From contig NZ_KI632511.1 in NCBI RefSeq assembly GCF_000504285.1, positions 8,848,154-8,912,153 of the forward strand: 64,000 nucleotides of DNA, written 5' to 3'. This stretch comes from Actinospica robiniae DSM 44927 (GTDB taxonomy: Bacteria > Actinomycetota > Actinomycetes > Streptomycetales > Catenulisporaceae). Below are positions 2,719 through 48,504 of this stretch, piece by piece. A program made the translations under genes and the position numbers. The notes under the pieces are model-generated. The model did no database searches. It was not told the origin of the DNA and saw nothing but the letters and a program-made list of their open reading frames with translations. Numbering within the stretch: position 1 is the stretch's first letter; each line of letters begins with the position of its first letter.

Positions 2719-3741
2719 TTACGCGAGGGTCTGAGTGAGCGAGTTTTCGGTGTCGCTGTAGGTGAGCCGGGCCAGGGCTCCATTGACGACGGGCATGTAG
2801 GGCACGACGTGCCCGCACTCGACGTCCGCGATGATGGGCACGTCGAGGGCGGACAGGGCGTCGAGGACGGCCTGGTGCTGGGTGAGACTGGCGGCGTCAG
2901 CGGCACGAGTGCGCCCGACGAGGACGGCGTTGGCGTTGGTGAAGAAGCCGGCCAGGCGCATGCCGTGCAGGGAGCGGCAGATCGTGAAGGCGTCGTCGCT
3001 GGCCGCCTCGACGTAAACGATCAGACCTTCCGGGGCGTGTTCGCGGGCGAAACCCGCCACGTCGCCATAGCGTGTGCCGGCCGTGTGGCACAGGGTCTCG
3101 ATGCAGCCGCCGATCAAGCGACCGGTGACCTCGACCGGCTCCGGACGGTCCAGGCGGATCCAGCGGCCGGGCGTGTCGAGCGTGAGTTCACGCACGCCGG
3201 GATTCTTCCGGTAGTCGTCGAAGCCCTCGGCGCGGTAACGGCCGGGCGAGTCCTGGCGCAGCGTCGCACCCGGGCCCGCGGCGGCGAGGTCCAGCCAGGT
3301 CAGCAGTCCTTCGGGGGCTCTATATGGGGTGTCCATCAGGTTATTGCCGTGGATGGTCGCGATTCCGGTCCGCAAGGTCAGCGGCGTGAGGATGGTCGAC
3401 ATGTCGGAGAAGCCGACAAGCCAGGTCGGCTCGGCAGCCATGATCGCGGGCCAGTCGAGCAGTTCCAGTAGATCGATAGCGGTCTCCCCGCCCCAAGGAG
3501 GCACCACGGCGCGCACCGACGGATCGGTGAGCAGCGCCGTCAGCTCGCGCGCCCGTTTGGGCGCGTCCGCGCTGACGTGCCCGGTGCCGTCCATGCATTC
3601 GCCCACCATCACCTCGTACCCGTATGCCTCGACGGTCTGGATCGCCGTTCTCAGGCGGGCACGCAAGGCGTCGGGTACGCCGCTGGAGGGGGACGTGACG
3701 GCGATTCGGTCGCCAAGGCGCAGCGGCAAGGGGAAACGCAT
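2719..3741 (-). CDS. S66 family peptidase (LD-carboxypeptidase / MccF-like)
   Basis: A 340-residue serine peptidase of family S66. The nucleophile segment is WLVGFSDMSTIL (Ser in GFSD). The C-terminal half holds the candidate Glu in IVYVEAASDD and the His in DVECGHVVPYMPV, completing the Ser-Glu-His triad. Family members either trim the L,D-bond of muropeptide tetrapeptides during cell-wall recycling or, as MccF, cleave processed microcin C-type peptidyl-adenylates; the sequence does not decide which. It is monocistronic: its 5' side faces the non-coding element and its 3' end is 18 bp from the convergent dehydrogenase. A second, divergent S66 gene lies at 16593-17540. Confidence 0.85.
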   Translation of the reverse strand: MRFPLPLRLGDRIAVTSPSSGVPDALRARLRTAIQTVEAYGYEVMVGECMDGTGHVSADAPKRARELTALLTDPSVRAVVPPWGGETAIDLLELLDWPAIMAAEPTWLVGFSDMSTILTPLTLRTGIATIHGNNLMDTPYRAPEGLLTWLDLAAAGPGATLRQDSPGRYRAEGFDDYRKNPGVRELTLDTPGRWIRLDRPEPVEVTGRLIGGCIETLCHTAGTRYGDVAGFAREHAPEGLIVYVEAASDDAFTICRSLHGMRLAGFFTNANAVLVGRTRAADAASLTQHQAVLDALSALDVPIIADVECGHVVPYMPVVNGALARLTYSDTENSLTQTLA

Positions 3742-3894
3742 GGGCTCGAATTTACCCGAGCAAGCGGATCACACGCCGCGGCTTATTCGCGAAGGTCGCG
3801 TATTCAGGCACGGCCGCGTGCTGCTCCCCGCTCGTCGCTTGCTCATGCGGATTGGTTAACCGATGGTGTGACGACAGCGCTCGACTTGAGCGAC

Positions 3895-5374
3895 TAGATG
3901 ATCGGTTGAGTACTGGTGGAGCGTGGTGACTTGGGGTTTGCGGTGTGGGCGGCCGCTTCGCGTCGCCTGGTTCGTCTGGCCACCCACCCACCCGTTGCGT
4001 TGGCGGGGTGGGCTGGGGTTTCAAGATCGAAAGGCGCCGCTGGCGGGCCCTTCCCTCGGAGAGAGTGCCGGGGCTTCGTGGTTGCTGGCGTGGCGGGGCG
4101 GGCTGGGGTTCGGGGTGGTCGGGTACGGGGGCGTGCTCTCTCCTCGGTCGGTCCCCGGAGGCAATCAGGAACCTGCCGGGAGCTCAAGCGGCGGCGGCCT
4201 GCGCTGATGGTCGATTTTGCATCGCGCCGCTTGACCTCCCGGCAGAACCCTGATCGGGCTTCGCCTGCCCGACCGAGGAGAGAACACACCCCCTGAGGGT
4301 CCGGTGCGAGCTGCGCTCGGGCCGAGTCCCGGCCCGTGGCCCGGCGCCGCGCTCGGTGCGGAAGGATTCTGCATCGCCGTGATCTGAGCATCCTGGTTCT
4401 CGATCCGCGCGAAGGGGCCGGTGACTCGGCCGGCCTGATGCGGAAGATTTGTGCATCGACCTGGTCTGATCCACCCCGCGCTCACGCAATGCGCGGAATC
4501 GCGTGGCTTGGTCGCACTCGGAGGGGAATTCCTGCATCTCGTGCGTGTCGGACGGTGACGATTCCATGCGGTATACAGCCCGGGATCTTCCGGCCTGGCG
4601 TCATGCGCGAGCAAACGGTCATGCTTCTCGGTCACCTCACCACCCCTCCCGACACGAGCCCCGAAACTCCCGAACACTTCCATGCTAGACGCCACCACCG
4701 ACAAAAACCGCGCATCAGGCTTTCACCGGATAAGCAAAAATCTCGGAGATTTCGGGCACTCTGGCGCGTTCCCCGGCGTTAGAGGAAGAGAAGAGAAAAG
4801 AGCGGCCCAGAACGGCAATGCAGGATTCAGCATCAGGCGCGGCCGGCCCAGGGGACCCTTCGCGCGGATCGATGATCGGGATGGTCGGATCAGGGTGGTG
4901 CAGGATCCTTCCGGATCGAGCGCGGCCGGGCCACAGGACGGGAATCGGCCCGAGCGCAGCTCGCACCGGACCTCAGGGGGTGGGCTCTCTCCTCGGTCGG
5001 GCAGGCGAAGCCCGATCAGGGTTCTGCCGGGAGGTCAAGCGGCGCGATGCAAGATCGAGCATCAGCGGAAGCTACCGCCGCTAGACCTCCCGACAGGTTC
5101 CTGATTGCCTCCGGTGCCCGACCGAGGAGAGAGCACGCACCCGCAACCCGACCACCCCGAACCCCAGCCCGCCCCACCAACCACACCACCCCACAGACTC
5201 CGGCATCTCTCTCCGAGGGAAGGCCCCAGCCGGAGGCGAGATCTTGAAACCCCAGCCCGCCCCGCCCACGCAACGGGTGGGCGAGTGGTCAGACGAACCA
5301 GGCGACGCGAAGCGGCCGTCCACACCACTAACCCCAAGTCACCATGCCCCAAAAACAATTCAGCCGATCATCTA
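3895..5374. repeat. 1.48 kb non-coding element with inverted arms (copy 1)
   Basis: This gene-free stretch is one structured unit. Its ends are an 11-bp inverted repeat TAGATGATCGG at 3895-3905 and CCGATCATCTA at 5364-5374. The left arm (about 3895-4460) is repeated, inverted and diverged, as the right arm (about 4800-5374); they share the blocks GTTGCGT...GGGTTTCAAGATC, CCTCGGTCGG and CGCTTGACCTCCCGGCAG. Each arm contains its own large imperfect palindrome. A rearranged full-length copy lies at about 45364-48490 on the other strand. Frames are open only because of base composition, so no protein is called. A non-autonomous mobile element or a structured RNA locus are the leading ideas. Confidence 0.8.
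4127..4286. repeat. Large imperfect palindrome in the left arm of copy 1
   Basis: The 5' side (CTCTCCTCGGTCGG, then CAATCAGGAACCTGCCGGGAG, then CAAGCGGCG) is mirrored by the 3' side (CGCCGCTTGACCTCCCGGCAG, AACCCTGATCGGGC, CCGACCGAGGAGAGA). It can fold into a stem-loop of about 160 nt with the GATTTTGCATCGC motif near the apex. The same palindrome occurs in each of the other three arms (around 4985-5140, 45560-45710 and 48115-48265), with compensating-looking differences between arms. Confidence 0.7.
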
Positions 5375-5393
5375 TGCGCAGTAGGCTGTTTCC

Positions 5394-5747
5394 ATGTGCA
5401 GGCGAGCCTTCCTGGTGAATCCCAAGGTCCACTACGTATGTGTGACCTGTCGCCAGAGCAACAAGTATGCATGGGACAGCGCCGTTCATCCGTGCCCGCG
5501 CTGCGGTGAGGCCATGGCCAACGCAGGGCACGACTTCGCCGCGCCGCGCCGCCGTGACGATAGCGGGTGGGCCGCGGTCGAAGCGGTGCTGGGTGCCGGG
5601 CTGCGGTATGACGGCTTCGTATTGTGCGGCTGCCAGCACCACCCGGAGTACCGTCCGCGCACGAGGTCGCAGGTCAAGGCGCGCCGTGTGCTCGCCGAGC
5701 GCAGCGGCGAAAGCCTCGCCGAGACCCTGGCGATGCGCGAGGTCTGA
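5394..5747 (+). CDS. Small zinc-ribbon protein of unknown function
   Basis: A 117-residue protein with two cysteine pairs, YVCVTCRQS and HPCPRCGEA, spaced like a zinc ribbon (residues about 15-40), followed by an aromatic and arginine-rich region with CGCQHHPEYRPRT. Streptomycetes carry similar short proteins, YVCLPCR...CPRCG...PPRRRD, which older annotations sometimes mislabel as deoxyxylulose phosphate synthase; nothing here supports an enzyme. It begins 19 bp past the end of the non-coding element, so its promoter may lie partly in that element. Coding nature is supported by the conserved Cys pattern and biased third positions. Function is unknown; nucleic-acid binding is possible. Confidence 0.7.
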   Translation: MCRRAFLVNPKVHYVCVTCRQSNKYAWDSAVHPCPRCGEAMANAGHDFAAPRRRDDSGWAAVEAVLGAGLRYDGFVLCGCQHHPEYRPRTRSQVKARRVLAERSGESLAETLAMREV

Positions 5748-5772
5748 TCGGACTCGCCGTAGGATGCGGCCC

Positions 5773-6411
5773 ATGCAGCAGATGCTGGTGGAGACGCCGC
5801 CCGGCCAGGCCCGGATCACCCGGTTCCCGGCCGTCGGCCGGCGCCGTGCCGCGCTGGCGGTCAGCCACGGCGCGGGCGGCGGGATCGAGGCACCCGACCT
5901 CCAGGCGCTCGCGGCGGCGCTCCCGGCCGCCGGGATCGAGGTCGCGTTGGTCGAGCAGCCGTGGCGGGTGGCCGGAAAGCGGCTGGCCCCGGCGCCGAAG
6001 ACCCTCGACGCCGCCTGGACCGTGCTCATCCCGGCCTACCGGGCCGAAGCCCTGCCGGACGGCGTTGCGCTGTTCGTCGGCGGACGCAGCGCCGGCGCGC
6101 GGGTCGCCTGCCGAACCGGTCTGGAGACCGGAGCCGCCGGCGTGCTCGCCCTGGCCTTTCCGCTGCACCCGCCCGGCAAGCCGGACAAGTCGCGTGCGCC
6201 CGAACTGCTCGGCACCGGCCTGCCGACGCTCGTGGTGCAGGGCGCGGCCGACGCCTTCGGTGGGCTCGCGGAGTTCCCCGAGCTGCCGAAGGGACATCGG
6301 CTCGTCGCCCTGCCGGCCGGCACGCACGAGTTCGCCGTCCGCAAGACCCAGGAGCCGGTGCTGGATCAGATCACTGACGCGGTCTCCGAGTGGATCAGCT
6401 CGTTGCTCTGA
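5773..6411 (+). CDS. Alpha/beta hydrolase, dienelactone hydrolase/Tex30-like
   Basis: A compact 212-residue alpha/beta hydrolase. LAVSHGAGGGIEAPDL forms the oxyanion-hole loop, VALFVGGRSAGARVACRTG carries the nucleophile elbow GGRSAG, PTLVVQGAADAFG the acid and LPAGTHEF the histidine. This is the KANL3/Tex30-like layout seen in small bacterial hydrolases annotated as dienelactone hydrolase family. ATG 5773 is chosen because AGGA lies 8 bp upstream; 5764 and 5782 are in frame. The 3' end overlaps the convergent AlaRS-like gene by 46 bp, so antisense interference between the two transcripts is possible. The substrate is unknown. Confidence 0.75.
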   Translation: MQQMLVETPPGQARITRFPAVGRRRAALAVSHGAGGGIEAPDLQALAAALPAAGIEVALVEQPWRVAGKRLAPAPKTLDAAWTVLIPAYRAEALPDGVALFVGGRSAGARVACRTGLETGAAGVLALAFPLHPPGKPDKSRAPELLGTGLPTLVVQGAADAFGGLAEFPELPKGHRLVALPAGTHEFAVRKTQEPVLDQITDAVSEWISSLL

Positions 6412-45161: not shown

Positions 45162-46007
45162 TTGCCACCTCCGAGCCGAAGCTGTCAGAGCACTGGCATG
45201 AGGATGGCGAAGCCGTCGTAAAAAAGCAATGGTGCTTGAAGAAACTTTGAAACTATGTTTCGTTGTGAGGGGTCAGCCAGGGAGATCGTGCACGGAGATA
45301 CCGATCTTCCGTAAGGATTCTTCGTCCGTTCGCCTGGACCTGTGGCTTGTTCACTAGCGTGAGTCGATGATCGGTTGGCCGCTTCGCGCCGCCCGTTTCG
45401 TCTGACCACTCGCCCACCCGTTGCGTGGGCGGGGCGGGCTGGGGTTTCAAGATCTCGCCTCCGGCTGGGGCCTTCCCTCGGAGAGAGATGCCGGAGTCTG
45501 TGGGGTGGTGTGGTTGGTGGGGCGGGCTGGGGTTCGGGGTGGTCGGGTTGCGGGTGCGTGCTCTCTCCTCGGTCGGGCACCGGAGGCAATCAGGAACCTG
45601 TCGGGAGGTCAAGCGGCGGTAGCTTCCACTGATGCTGGATCTTGCATCGCGCCGCTTGACCTCCCGACAGAACGCTGATCGGGCTTCGCCTGCCCGACCG
45701 AGGAGAGAGCCCACCCCCTGAGGATCGGCGTGAGCTGCGCTCGGGCCGGGCGGCCTGGCCGCACTCGACGCGGAAGGATCCTGCATCGCCGTGCTGGCCC
45801 GCTCTTTTGTTCTCTACTGTTTCAACGCCGGGGAGCGCGCCCGAGTTCCCCGGAAGTGTCCGGAATTCTCTATAACCGGCAAAGGCCGGATTCATGGTTT
45901 TTGTCAGTAGTGGCGTCTAGCATGGAAGCGTACGGGGATCGGGACTTGTGACAGGAGGGGTGGTGGACGGGGTGTGGCCGAAGACGGTGCAGGATTTCCC
46001 CTCGGGG

Positions 46008-47793
46008 GACTCTGCTGGCGAAGTCGGGGGTGGTTTGGTTAGGCGGGTTTGCCGATGTGGTGGGTGTCGTAGAGGGCTTGTATACGGGTGGGTCGGCGGG
46101 GTTTGGTCTGGGTGGGCGCGTAGTGCGCGCCGAGGCGTCTGATGTTGATCGCGATGCCGGTCAGGACGTTTTGGAGGTGGTTTTTGGGGAGCCCGCGGTA
46201 GCGGGAGTGGCGTAGATCGCTGATGCGTACGGCCTGGGAGATGGTGCCCTCGATACCGGCGCGCTGGTTATAAACCTTCTGCCATTCTGGGGTGTGCTGG
46301 GTGCGGATCGCGTTCATGCGGGCCTCGTAGGGCTCGCGGGGGTGAACGACCAGCACGCGTGGCCGAGGGGCCGGCGCGCTCAGACAGGCGGTGCGTAGCG
46401 GGCAGGGTGTGCAGTCGCGGCGGGAGAAGCTGAAGGCGACCAGCCCGTTCTTCTGCCCGCGCATCGGGTTGCTCACCTTCTCGCCCGGGCAGCGGGCGCG
46501 CCCGGTGTCCCAGTCGATCTCGAACTCGCGCGGGCTGAAGGTCCCGGTCTTCGCGCCCCGCCCGCTCGAGACGGTGACCGGCGCGATCAGGGTGATGCCG
46601 TGGCCGGCCGCGGCGATGAGGTTCGCGGCGGTGGGATACCCGGCGTCCATCACATGCACGCCCGGGCCCAGCCCGCGCGCCAGGAGCCGTTCCTGGATAT
46701 CAGTTGTCTGCGCGGAATCCTGCACGGTCGCCGCGCTCGTGGCGACATCCGTGACCAGGTGCGGGAGATCCTCGTCGCAGGACTCGGTCAGGTGGACCTT
46801 GCCTCCCTCCCACCCGCTCGCGCGTTTGACCGCGTAGCGGGCATCCGGGTCGTACGGAGAGATCGGCAACTCGGCCGCGGGCGGCAGGTCGGTGACGGCT
46901 TTGAGCACCCATCCGCCGCCCTCACTCCGCTCGAAGTGCTGCTCCCAGACCTGGGCGAGCAGCCGTACCTGCGGCAGCCTAAGGACCCACCCGGCCGTGG
47001 GGTCCGCCTTAAGCGTCTCGAGCAGCAGCGAGCCGTCCGCGCCGAACCGCCCGGCCAACTCCTCCATCGTGGCCTTGCCCCGCCCGCGCCCGATCAGCCG
47101 GGAGGTCTCGACCTTGCGCCCGTACCGCTCCTCCCACCCCGGCGCCAGCAGCGGCACGACCCGCTCCGGAGCGACCCGCGCGATCTCCTCGAGCGCCGCA
47201 CGCACACTCTCGCCGAGCATCTCGACCCGGCCCAGCGAGCGCACCGCCGCGAGCACATGCGTCGAGTCCGTACGCGCCCGCCCGCCCGCGCGCACCAGCC
47301 CGGCCGCCTTGAGCTTGTCCAGCACGGTATCGAGCAGCGCGTCCGCGCGCCCCGGCTCGGCCAGCCGGGCCCGGAACTCGGCCAGCACCGACGCGTCGAA
47401 CCCGGTCTCAGCCACATCCAGGCCCAGCGCGTACTTCCACGAGATCCGGTCCGCCATCGCCACCACCGCCTCCCGGTCCGAGAGGTTGTGCAGGAACTGC
47501 AACACCGTGACCATCGCCAGCAACCCCGGCGAAAGCGCGGGCCGGCCGAGCGCCGCAAACATCCCGGCGAACCGCTCGTGCTCGAAATCCTCATCGGCGA
47601 ACAACGGCCCGAGCGCATCACGCACCCGCATCTCGCCCGTGCCCTTCGGATGCACCGCCCACGCCAACGCGGCCGTCGCCGCCGGAACCCCACCAGCCCG
47701 CACAGGACGAAACACCACAAGCCCCTCAATCACCCAGCCGACACGACCACCCAGCCTGCCACAAAATCAGACCACGACTTCGCCAGCAGAGTC
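46008..47793 (-). mobile_element. IS1182-like insertion sequence, 1786 bp
   Basis: Bounded by a perfect 19-bp terminal inverted repeat: GACTCTGCTGGCGAAGTCG at 46008-46026 and its complement at 47775-47793. It holds a single intact transposase gene on the minus strand and no passenger gene. Intact ends, an intact gene and a recognisable 7-bp duplication suggest a recent, possibly still active insertion. Confidence 0.85.
46039..47733 (-). CDS. IS1182 family transposase
   Basis: A 564-residue DDE transposase. The N-terminal domain has LLAMVTVLQFLHNLSDREAVVAMADRISWKYALGLD; the catalytic residues are Asp156 in ARTDSTHVLAAV, Asp in GVHVMDAGYPTAANL and Glu in NQRAGIEGTISQAVRI. A zinc-like knot (RDCTPCPLRTAC) lies before the last. 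ISDLRHSRYRGLPKNHLQNVLTGIAINIRRL is the family C-terminus. The frame is uninterrupted and fills the IS, with 60 bp and 31 bp to the ends. ATG at residue 35 is an alternative start. Confidence 0.93.
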   Translation of the reverse strand: MIEGLVVFRPVRAGGVPAATAALAWAVHPKGTGEMRVRDALGPLFADEDFEHERFAGMFAALGRPALSPGLLAMVTVLQFLHNLSDREAVVAMADRISWKYALGLDVAETGFDASVLAEFRARLAEPGRADALLDTVLDKLKAAGLVRAGGRARTDSTHVLAAVRSLGRVEMLGESVRAALEEIARVAPERVVPLLAPGWEERYGRKVETSRLIGRGRGKATMEELAGRFGADGSLLLETLKADPTAGWVLRLPQVRLLAQVWEQHFERSEGGGWVLKAVTDLPPAAELPISPYDPDARYAVKRASGWEGGKVHLTESCDEDLPHLVTDVATSAATVQDSAQTTDIQERLLARGLGPGVHVMDAGYPTAANLIAAAGHGITLIAPVTVSSGRGAKTGTFSPREFEIDWDTGRARCPGEKVSNPMRGQKNGLVAFSFSRRDCTPCPLRTACLSAPAPRPRVLVVHPREPYEARMNAIRTQHTPEWQKVYNQRAGIEGTISQAVRISDLRHSRYRGLPKNHLQNVLTGIAINIRRLGAHYAPTQTKPRRPTRIQALYDTHHIGKPA

Positions 47794-48504
47794 CTCGGGG
47801 TGCGGCCGGGCCGCGCGATCCTGTGCAGTGCGTGAGCACCGGGTGCATCGGAACGGGGTGATGCAGAATCCTTCCGCATCGGGCACGGCTGGCCTGCGGG
47901 ATTCTGCCGCGAGGTCAGGGATCGAGGCCGGTCGCACCAAGGCAATGCAGGATTCAGCAGTAAGCGCGACCCGAGCGCCGACCTCTTCGCGCGGACCGAG
48001 GATCGGGATGCTCGGATCAGGGTGATGCAGGATTCTTCCGGATCGAGCGCGGCCGGGCCCCGGGACGGGATTCGGCCCGAGCGGAGCTCGCACCACTTCC
48101 TCAGGGGGTGGGTTCTCTCCTCGGTCGGGCAGGCGAAGCCCGATCAGGGTTCTGCCGGGAGGTCAAGCGGCGCGATGCATGATTCACCATCAACGGAGAC
48201 CTCCGCCGCTTGACCTCCCGGCAGGTTCCTGATTGCCTCCGGGGACCGACCGAGGAGAGAGCACACCCCCGCAACCCAACCACCCCCAACCTCAGCCCGC
48301 CCCACCAACCACGCGACCCCACGGACTCCGGCACTCTCCGAGGGAAGGCCCCAGCCGGAGGCGAAATCTTGAAACCGCAGCCCACCCGCCAACGCAACGG
48401 GTGGGCGGGTGGTCAGACAAACAGGGCGACGCGAAGCGGCCGCCCACACCACGACGACACTCCGCCCCAACAAGCCACTACGCCCCAGGAGCACGGCGCT
48501 CCGG

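Follow-up and report, generated by a model that had tools for sequence, protein, structure and literature searches.

A gene-free, TA-bounded element with palindromic arms in Actinospica robiniae and its probable origin from a DUF222-HNH-bearing element

A stretch of about 1.5 kb in the genome of Actinospica robiniae DSM 44927 consists of two long inverted arms, holds a large imperfect palindrome in each and carries no recognisable gene. What kind of entity is it, and how did it arise? The stretch lies in a window of 64,000 nucleotides, the whole stretch of DNA analysed, inside one 9,918,887-bp contig. The original prediction, made from the window alone, offered a non-autonomous transposon, a large structured RNA or a chromosome-organising site. 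Comparison with other copies now indicates that it is probably a very large MITE-like non-autonomous element, derived by internal deletion from a 2.6-kb DUF222-HNH-bearing element and moved in trans by an IS630-type transposase. The parts of the window copy are as follows:

3886..5383, unstranded: whole gene-free element, with the target TA counted at both ends; ends placed against other copies; family consensus 1467 bp
3886..3912, plus strand: left terminal repeat; end pattern with 4 mismatches
5357..5383, minus strand: right terminal repeat; end pattern with 4 mismatches
3886..4445, plus strand: left arm; 85% identity with the inverted right arm
4826..5383, minus strand: right arm; 85% identity with the inverted left arm
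4127..4293, unstranded: left palindrome, 167 nt; from comparison within the window, with compensatory changes in alignment A1
4976..5142, unstranded: right palindrome, 167 nt; from comparison within the window, with compensatory changes in the alignment
4634..4740, minus strand: putative leader remnant of a lost DUF222-HNH gene; limits approximate, by eye; consensus 533-704 is 75% identical to the gene leader in copy 262916-265514

The predicted inverted arms are present (3895-4445 against 4826-5374, 85% identity), as is one palindrome per arm (4127-4293 and 4976-5142). The absence of a credible gene also holds, the open reading frames inside being overlapping frames on both strands, of which the longest wholly internal one has 179 aa (by inspection). 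The 11-bp terminal inverted repeats, TAGATGATCGG and CCGATCATCTA, exist as described, but the true ends lie 9 bp further out, at 3886 and 5383; comparison with other copies shows that the 11-bp repeat is the internal portion of an extended terminal repeat, TA-NN-GCGANTTGATGATCGGCTGRGTG. The window copy has TT in place of the left TA. A search of window positions 3500-5900 against Rfam returns no family at gathering score and two matches far below it. Short GATGC..GCATC-type motifs are seen repeatedly next to the palindrome (window 4380-4900 and loci L126, L130 and L132, by eye) and are found in the A. robiniae genome, in A. durhamensis (G001) and in a further congener, G002.

The element belongs to a large family. 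A DNA search of the A. robiniae genome yields at least 209 matches (40 of 278 candidates scored), and the terminal pattern, allowing up to three mismatches, is matched at 130 places against none for the reversed control, which excludes chance. In the stretches around some 100 listed places of these 130 and around the HNH genes, 77 clusters match an arm over 150 bp or more; five bear an HNH gene, and the others are gene-free or split by inserts. Matches separated by less than 5 kb were joined into one cluster; a copy with a longer insert may count twice, and 8177351 and 8183738 are possibly one such copy. The family size is therefore given as more than 70 loci. The consensus of 34 uninterrupted copies has 1467 bp, with arms of 501 bp (5-505 and 963-1463) that are 98.6% identical. 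These copies align without a transposase gene, in keeping with the reported lack of one, and their pairwise identity runs from 76% to 99.3%. The closest pair, 3588199 and 8365416, agrees from the TA inward except for the base after the left TA, while its flanks are unrelated. The copies are dispersed and of differing ages. The genome-wide search with the arms thus reveals a dispersed family and not a single-copy sequence, and the element is not the decayed remains of a known IS.

The left arm has no match in plasmid and phage collections, and the 23-base end pattern has none in the named genome contigs. Among 99 related genomes, A. robiniae included, the end pattern is matched in 55, with frequencies outside A. 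robiniae that range from roughly that of the reversed control to a few per genome. Contig ends of G001 and G002 (L126-L131) carry pieces of palindrome or arm, which is what several copies per genome would produce by interrupting the draft assembly.

The ends of the family read (Y)TA-NN-GCGANTTGATGATCGGCTG. Among 116 ends, 109 start with T, 100 have A at the second position and 109 have C or T just outside the TA, beyond which there is no information. Information is below 0.2 bit at the two bases after the TA and reaches at least 1.5 bits per base at GC and TTGATGATC further in; the two variable bases fall within the stagger described in PMC2170065. In 32 of 49 paired copies, TA flanks the element on both sides, and this, with one empty site, constitutes the target-site duplication of a MITE; in the other 17, the window copy among them, TA is not at both ends, which counts against an IS630-type model. 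Three copies were compared with A. durhamensis in search of the empty sites that the prediction called for, and one was found: the orthologous place of copy 7997126-7998145 is empty, with flanks continuous save for small gaps, no element sequence within it and a target that reads as a stop-codon triplet. For the window copy and copy 4594895, none was found; their neighbouring genes lie on different G001 contigs. Of the readings first offered, the non-autonomous transposon is the one supported by the dispersed family, the 99.3% pair with unrelated flanks, the TA-bounded ends and the orthologous empty site. In a rough ORF scan over joined flanks, the target TA of 10 of the 34 uninterrupted copies overlaps the stop codon of a predicted gene, and four copies seemingly lie inside a predicted frame.

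A gene-bearing copy at 262916-265514 (2599 bp) points to where the gene-free form comes from. Its ends and arms match those of the gene-free family: both terminal repeats are present, although the left TA reads TG and the right repeat is one base short, and the arms are 87-90% identical to the gene-free consensus. Between them, an open frame of 424 codons (263678-264949) encodes a DUF222-HNH protein. Consensus positions 533-704 align, at 75%, to the leader of this gene, and the gene-free consensus continues into the gene start, with GTGGACGGGGTGGCTGGGCAG against VDGVTGQ of locus L191 (by eye). The window copy, which lacks the DUF222-HNH gene, no longer reads the consensus first codons. Since leader and first codons are kept in gene-free copies, a single internal deletion followed by spread would account for them, and the gene-free element appears to be an internal-deletion derivative of the DUF222-HNH-bearing one.

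The association of gene and arms is found in two species. A DUF222 search detects six genes in A. robiniae and three in G002, but none in G001 or in 10 genomes outside the genus Actinospica; the six A. robiniae proteins all exceed the Pfam cut-offs for both DUF222 and HNH. A seventh A. robiniae gene, 93% identical to one of the six, was found by tblastn over the retrieved DNA. Six of the seven lie between inverted arms (L189, L191, L192, L193, L194 and 262916-265514), the right arm being split in L191 and L192, while at the seventh locus, L190, an arm fragment of 99 nt and a shorter inverted match stand on the same side of the gene. In G002, arms flank one gene on both sides, and the other two genes lie at contig ends with one arm, in one case just a 52-nt match. 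Between the L191 gene and that at 263678-264949, dS is 0.204 and dN 0.032 (dN/dS 0.155), a ratio that indicates purifying selection on the DUF222-HNH gene. A second gene-bearing type has copies at 311 kb and 3234 kb that are 96.3% identical over 2639 aligned bp and have different flanks. The near-identical HNH genes of these two copies, L193 and L194, differ by one synonymous and three nonsynonymous changes, too few to judge selection.

Many copies have in turn received other elements, as has a second family member in the window:

45355..48490, unstranded: second family copy, interrupted; right limit approximate, right end not recognisable
46039..47733, minus strand: IS1182-family transposase gene nested in the second copy; NF033551, 288 bits against a cut-off of 270

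Such nested transposases were considered as the element's own and rejected; their families and positions differ between copies, and in the long copies searched the genes come from distinct IS families. Inserts of more than 700 bp are present in 23 of 24 long copies, a few of them being the HNH gene. Eight long copies are broken at consensus 356-382 or its mirror 1086-1112, within the palindrome, as though other ISs preferred to insert there. Different IS110-family genes are nested in copies L083, L077, L079, L078 and L095, and in four copies an IS110-family frame starts 250-380 bp from the element end.

The question then is what moves the family. A. durhamensis carries a 1134-bp IS630-family IS with perfect 27-bp ends; the one facing pair of end patterns pursued among the relatives, in that genome, was rejected when it proved to be an IS630. 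The end of the A. durhamensis IS630 has 19 of 23 bases in common with the end of the gene-free consensus, a level that 2 of 12988 TA-led 23-mers from the retrieved A. robiniae DNA also attain once 23-mers with the element's core are set aside. A left end in G004 shares 18 bases with the consensus end (4 of 12988 in the same null set), and for other element copies and ISs the resemblance is weaker, such as copy L191 against one A. robiniae IS630 remnant at 13 of 23 (88 of 12988). In the A. robiniae genome itself, we found no intact IS630 with the element's ends, even though copies have moved recently; the related IS630 copies there are broken, one unrelated IS630 is nested in an element copy, and none of five DDE_3 matches or six tblastn matches is an intact internal gene of the family. 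The target habit of IS630 is nevertheless visible. Two IS630 copies, 8182296 and 8461885 (L072 and L073), are 99.9% identical over 1236 bp, have ends TAGTGCCGTATCAGG, unlike those of the element, and both sit at CTAG, one of them in the CTAG of an element copy's leader (by eye). Thus the CTAG habit is seen in A. robiniae, and the matching transposase is not. A preference of IS630 for CTAG is named in a title cited in PMC2170065.

On the favoured explanation, the parent of 2.6 kb would be laid out as a terminal repeat, a 0.5-kb arm with palindrome, the DUF222-HNH gene, an inverted arm with palindrome and a terminal repeat. Internal deletion would remove the nuclease gene, and the gene-free form would then spread by cut-and-paste into TA, preferably CTAG, through an IS630/Tc1-mariner-type transposase acting in trans. 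The enzyme serving this element may now be lost or may have been missed. Movement or upkeep of the element would depend on the palindrome, to which the HNH protein perhaps binds. An IS630-type enzyme acting in trans is the most likely mover; the main rival is movement driven by the HNH protein.

According to this main rival, the DUF222-HNH protein mobilises the element by cutting or nicking its ends or palindromes, gene-free copies use it in trans, and the IS630-like ends are borrowed or convergent. We judge this unlikely, if worth keeping in view. It would explain why intact HNH genes, apparently under purifying selection, occur in copies that share these ends and arms whereas no intact matching IS630 was found in the genome, and why the palindrome has been kept across three species. 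However, a known DDE transposase family has this TA target, CTAG preference and end sequence, and we know of no HNH nuclease that acts as a transposase. Nor was the association seen more widely: DUF222-HNH genes occur in 27 of 60 genomes sampled from the phylum, and at 29 DUF222 loci in 26 other genomes, with about 1500 bases searched on each side, there are no such arms, the longest flanking inverted match being 38 nt. A bolder version, that DUF222-HNH genes define a bacterial transposon type in which HNH nuclease and palindromic arm drive or license movement from TA to TA, with REP13E12-type repeats as armless relatives, is about as unlikely.

The palindrome bears on several readings. We aligned 28 hand-chosen palindromes, 16 from gene-free copies, seven from HNH copies of A. 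robiniae, four from G002 and one from G001. Changes on both sides are seen in 18 of 48 pairs, with 91.5% of cells pairing, and this covariation is reached by none of 500 shuffles; further pair types are not above shuffles (450 of 500 reach the count), and slid versions are 42-47% paired. Pairing covers 97.8-100% of cells in the inner stem and 82.8% in the outer stem, which entered the covariation count as a stem chosen by complementarity; RNAalifold prefers to fold columns 26-55 into a local hairpin in place of the outer stem. The covariance analysis that the prediction proposed thus finds compensatory changes across three species, and these sequence comparisons show a conserved palindrome. 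The covariation would fit the structured-RNA option, but it fits DNA as well, and correction between the arms of a DNA palindrome could contribute to it.

Selection of the family for a role as structured RNA, terminator or chromosome site, with mobility incidental, is very improbable. The covarying palindrome and the ten uninterrupted copies whose target TA adjoins a stop codon (rough ORF scan) would fit it, but a TA or CTAG target also leads to such placement where the genome is rich in GC, identity between copies falls to 76%, ISs interrupt many of them and Rfam gives no match at gathering score in the window stretch searched. The copies are irregularly spaced with varied TA targets, which lends no support to a chromosome-organising site. 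Homing, in which copies spread through HNH cutting and gene conversion instead of transposition, has a similarly slight chance: a preprint (PMC13061034) names the M. tuberculosis REP13E12 regions as hot spots of gene conversion, but homing needs a like site in the recipient, whereas the flanks here are unrelated beyond YTA, there is no one fixed cognate site and the single empty site is without element sequence.

The preferred reading, a transposon moved in trans, places the family beside known systems without matching any one of them. MITEs are small, usually of a few hundred base pairs. The element shares with IS630/Tc1-mariner elements and their MITEs the TA at its ends, the YTA and CTAG preference, related terminal bases, the lack of a gene of its own and terminal inverted repeats in many dispersed copies; it differs in its size (consensus 1467 bp), in its palindrome-bearing arms of 0.5 kb and in having no internal DDE (DDE_3) transposase gene, the parent carrying an HNH gene instead and the matching transposase not being found in A. 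robiniae. With the REP13E12 and DUF222-HNH repeats of actinobacteria, likened by domains and not by sequence, it has in common the DUF222 and HNH domains and a multi-copy gene, while the inverted arms, the palindromes and the TA-bounded ends set it apart, none such having been seen at the 29 DUF222 loci of 26 other genomes. The REP13E12 regions of M. tuberculosis are said in a 2026 preprint to ‘lack defined biological function’ and yet to rank among the most recombined loci (PMC13061034). KolobokP transposons, compared by their description in PMC9587614, likewise combine transposon ends with the gene of a His-Me finger (HNH-like) nuclease, but are eukaryotic and encode their own transposase.

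The original view that no named family fits stands for the combination, DUF222-HNH gene with IS630-like ends, of which we found no description in the literature searched; its components are familiar, the parent gene being a known DUF222-HNH (REP13E12-type) gene and the ends IS630-like. The gene-bearing parents link the puzzling DUF222-HNH nuclease repeats to transposon-like ends. Here, these genes lie in elements whose ends can be defined and whose target is TA; there are two near-identical copies at dispersed places, signs of purifying selection and gene-free offspring at more than 70 loci, so that the role of the DUF222-HNH protein becomes addressable as a question of mobility. In transporter ISs and mobile insertion cassettes, IS-type ends carry a passenger gene without a transposase; the family in A. 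robiniae differs from these in that its arms are palindromic and its gene-free derivative outnumbers the gene-bearing form.
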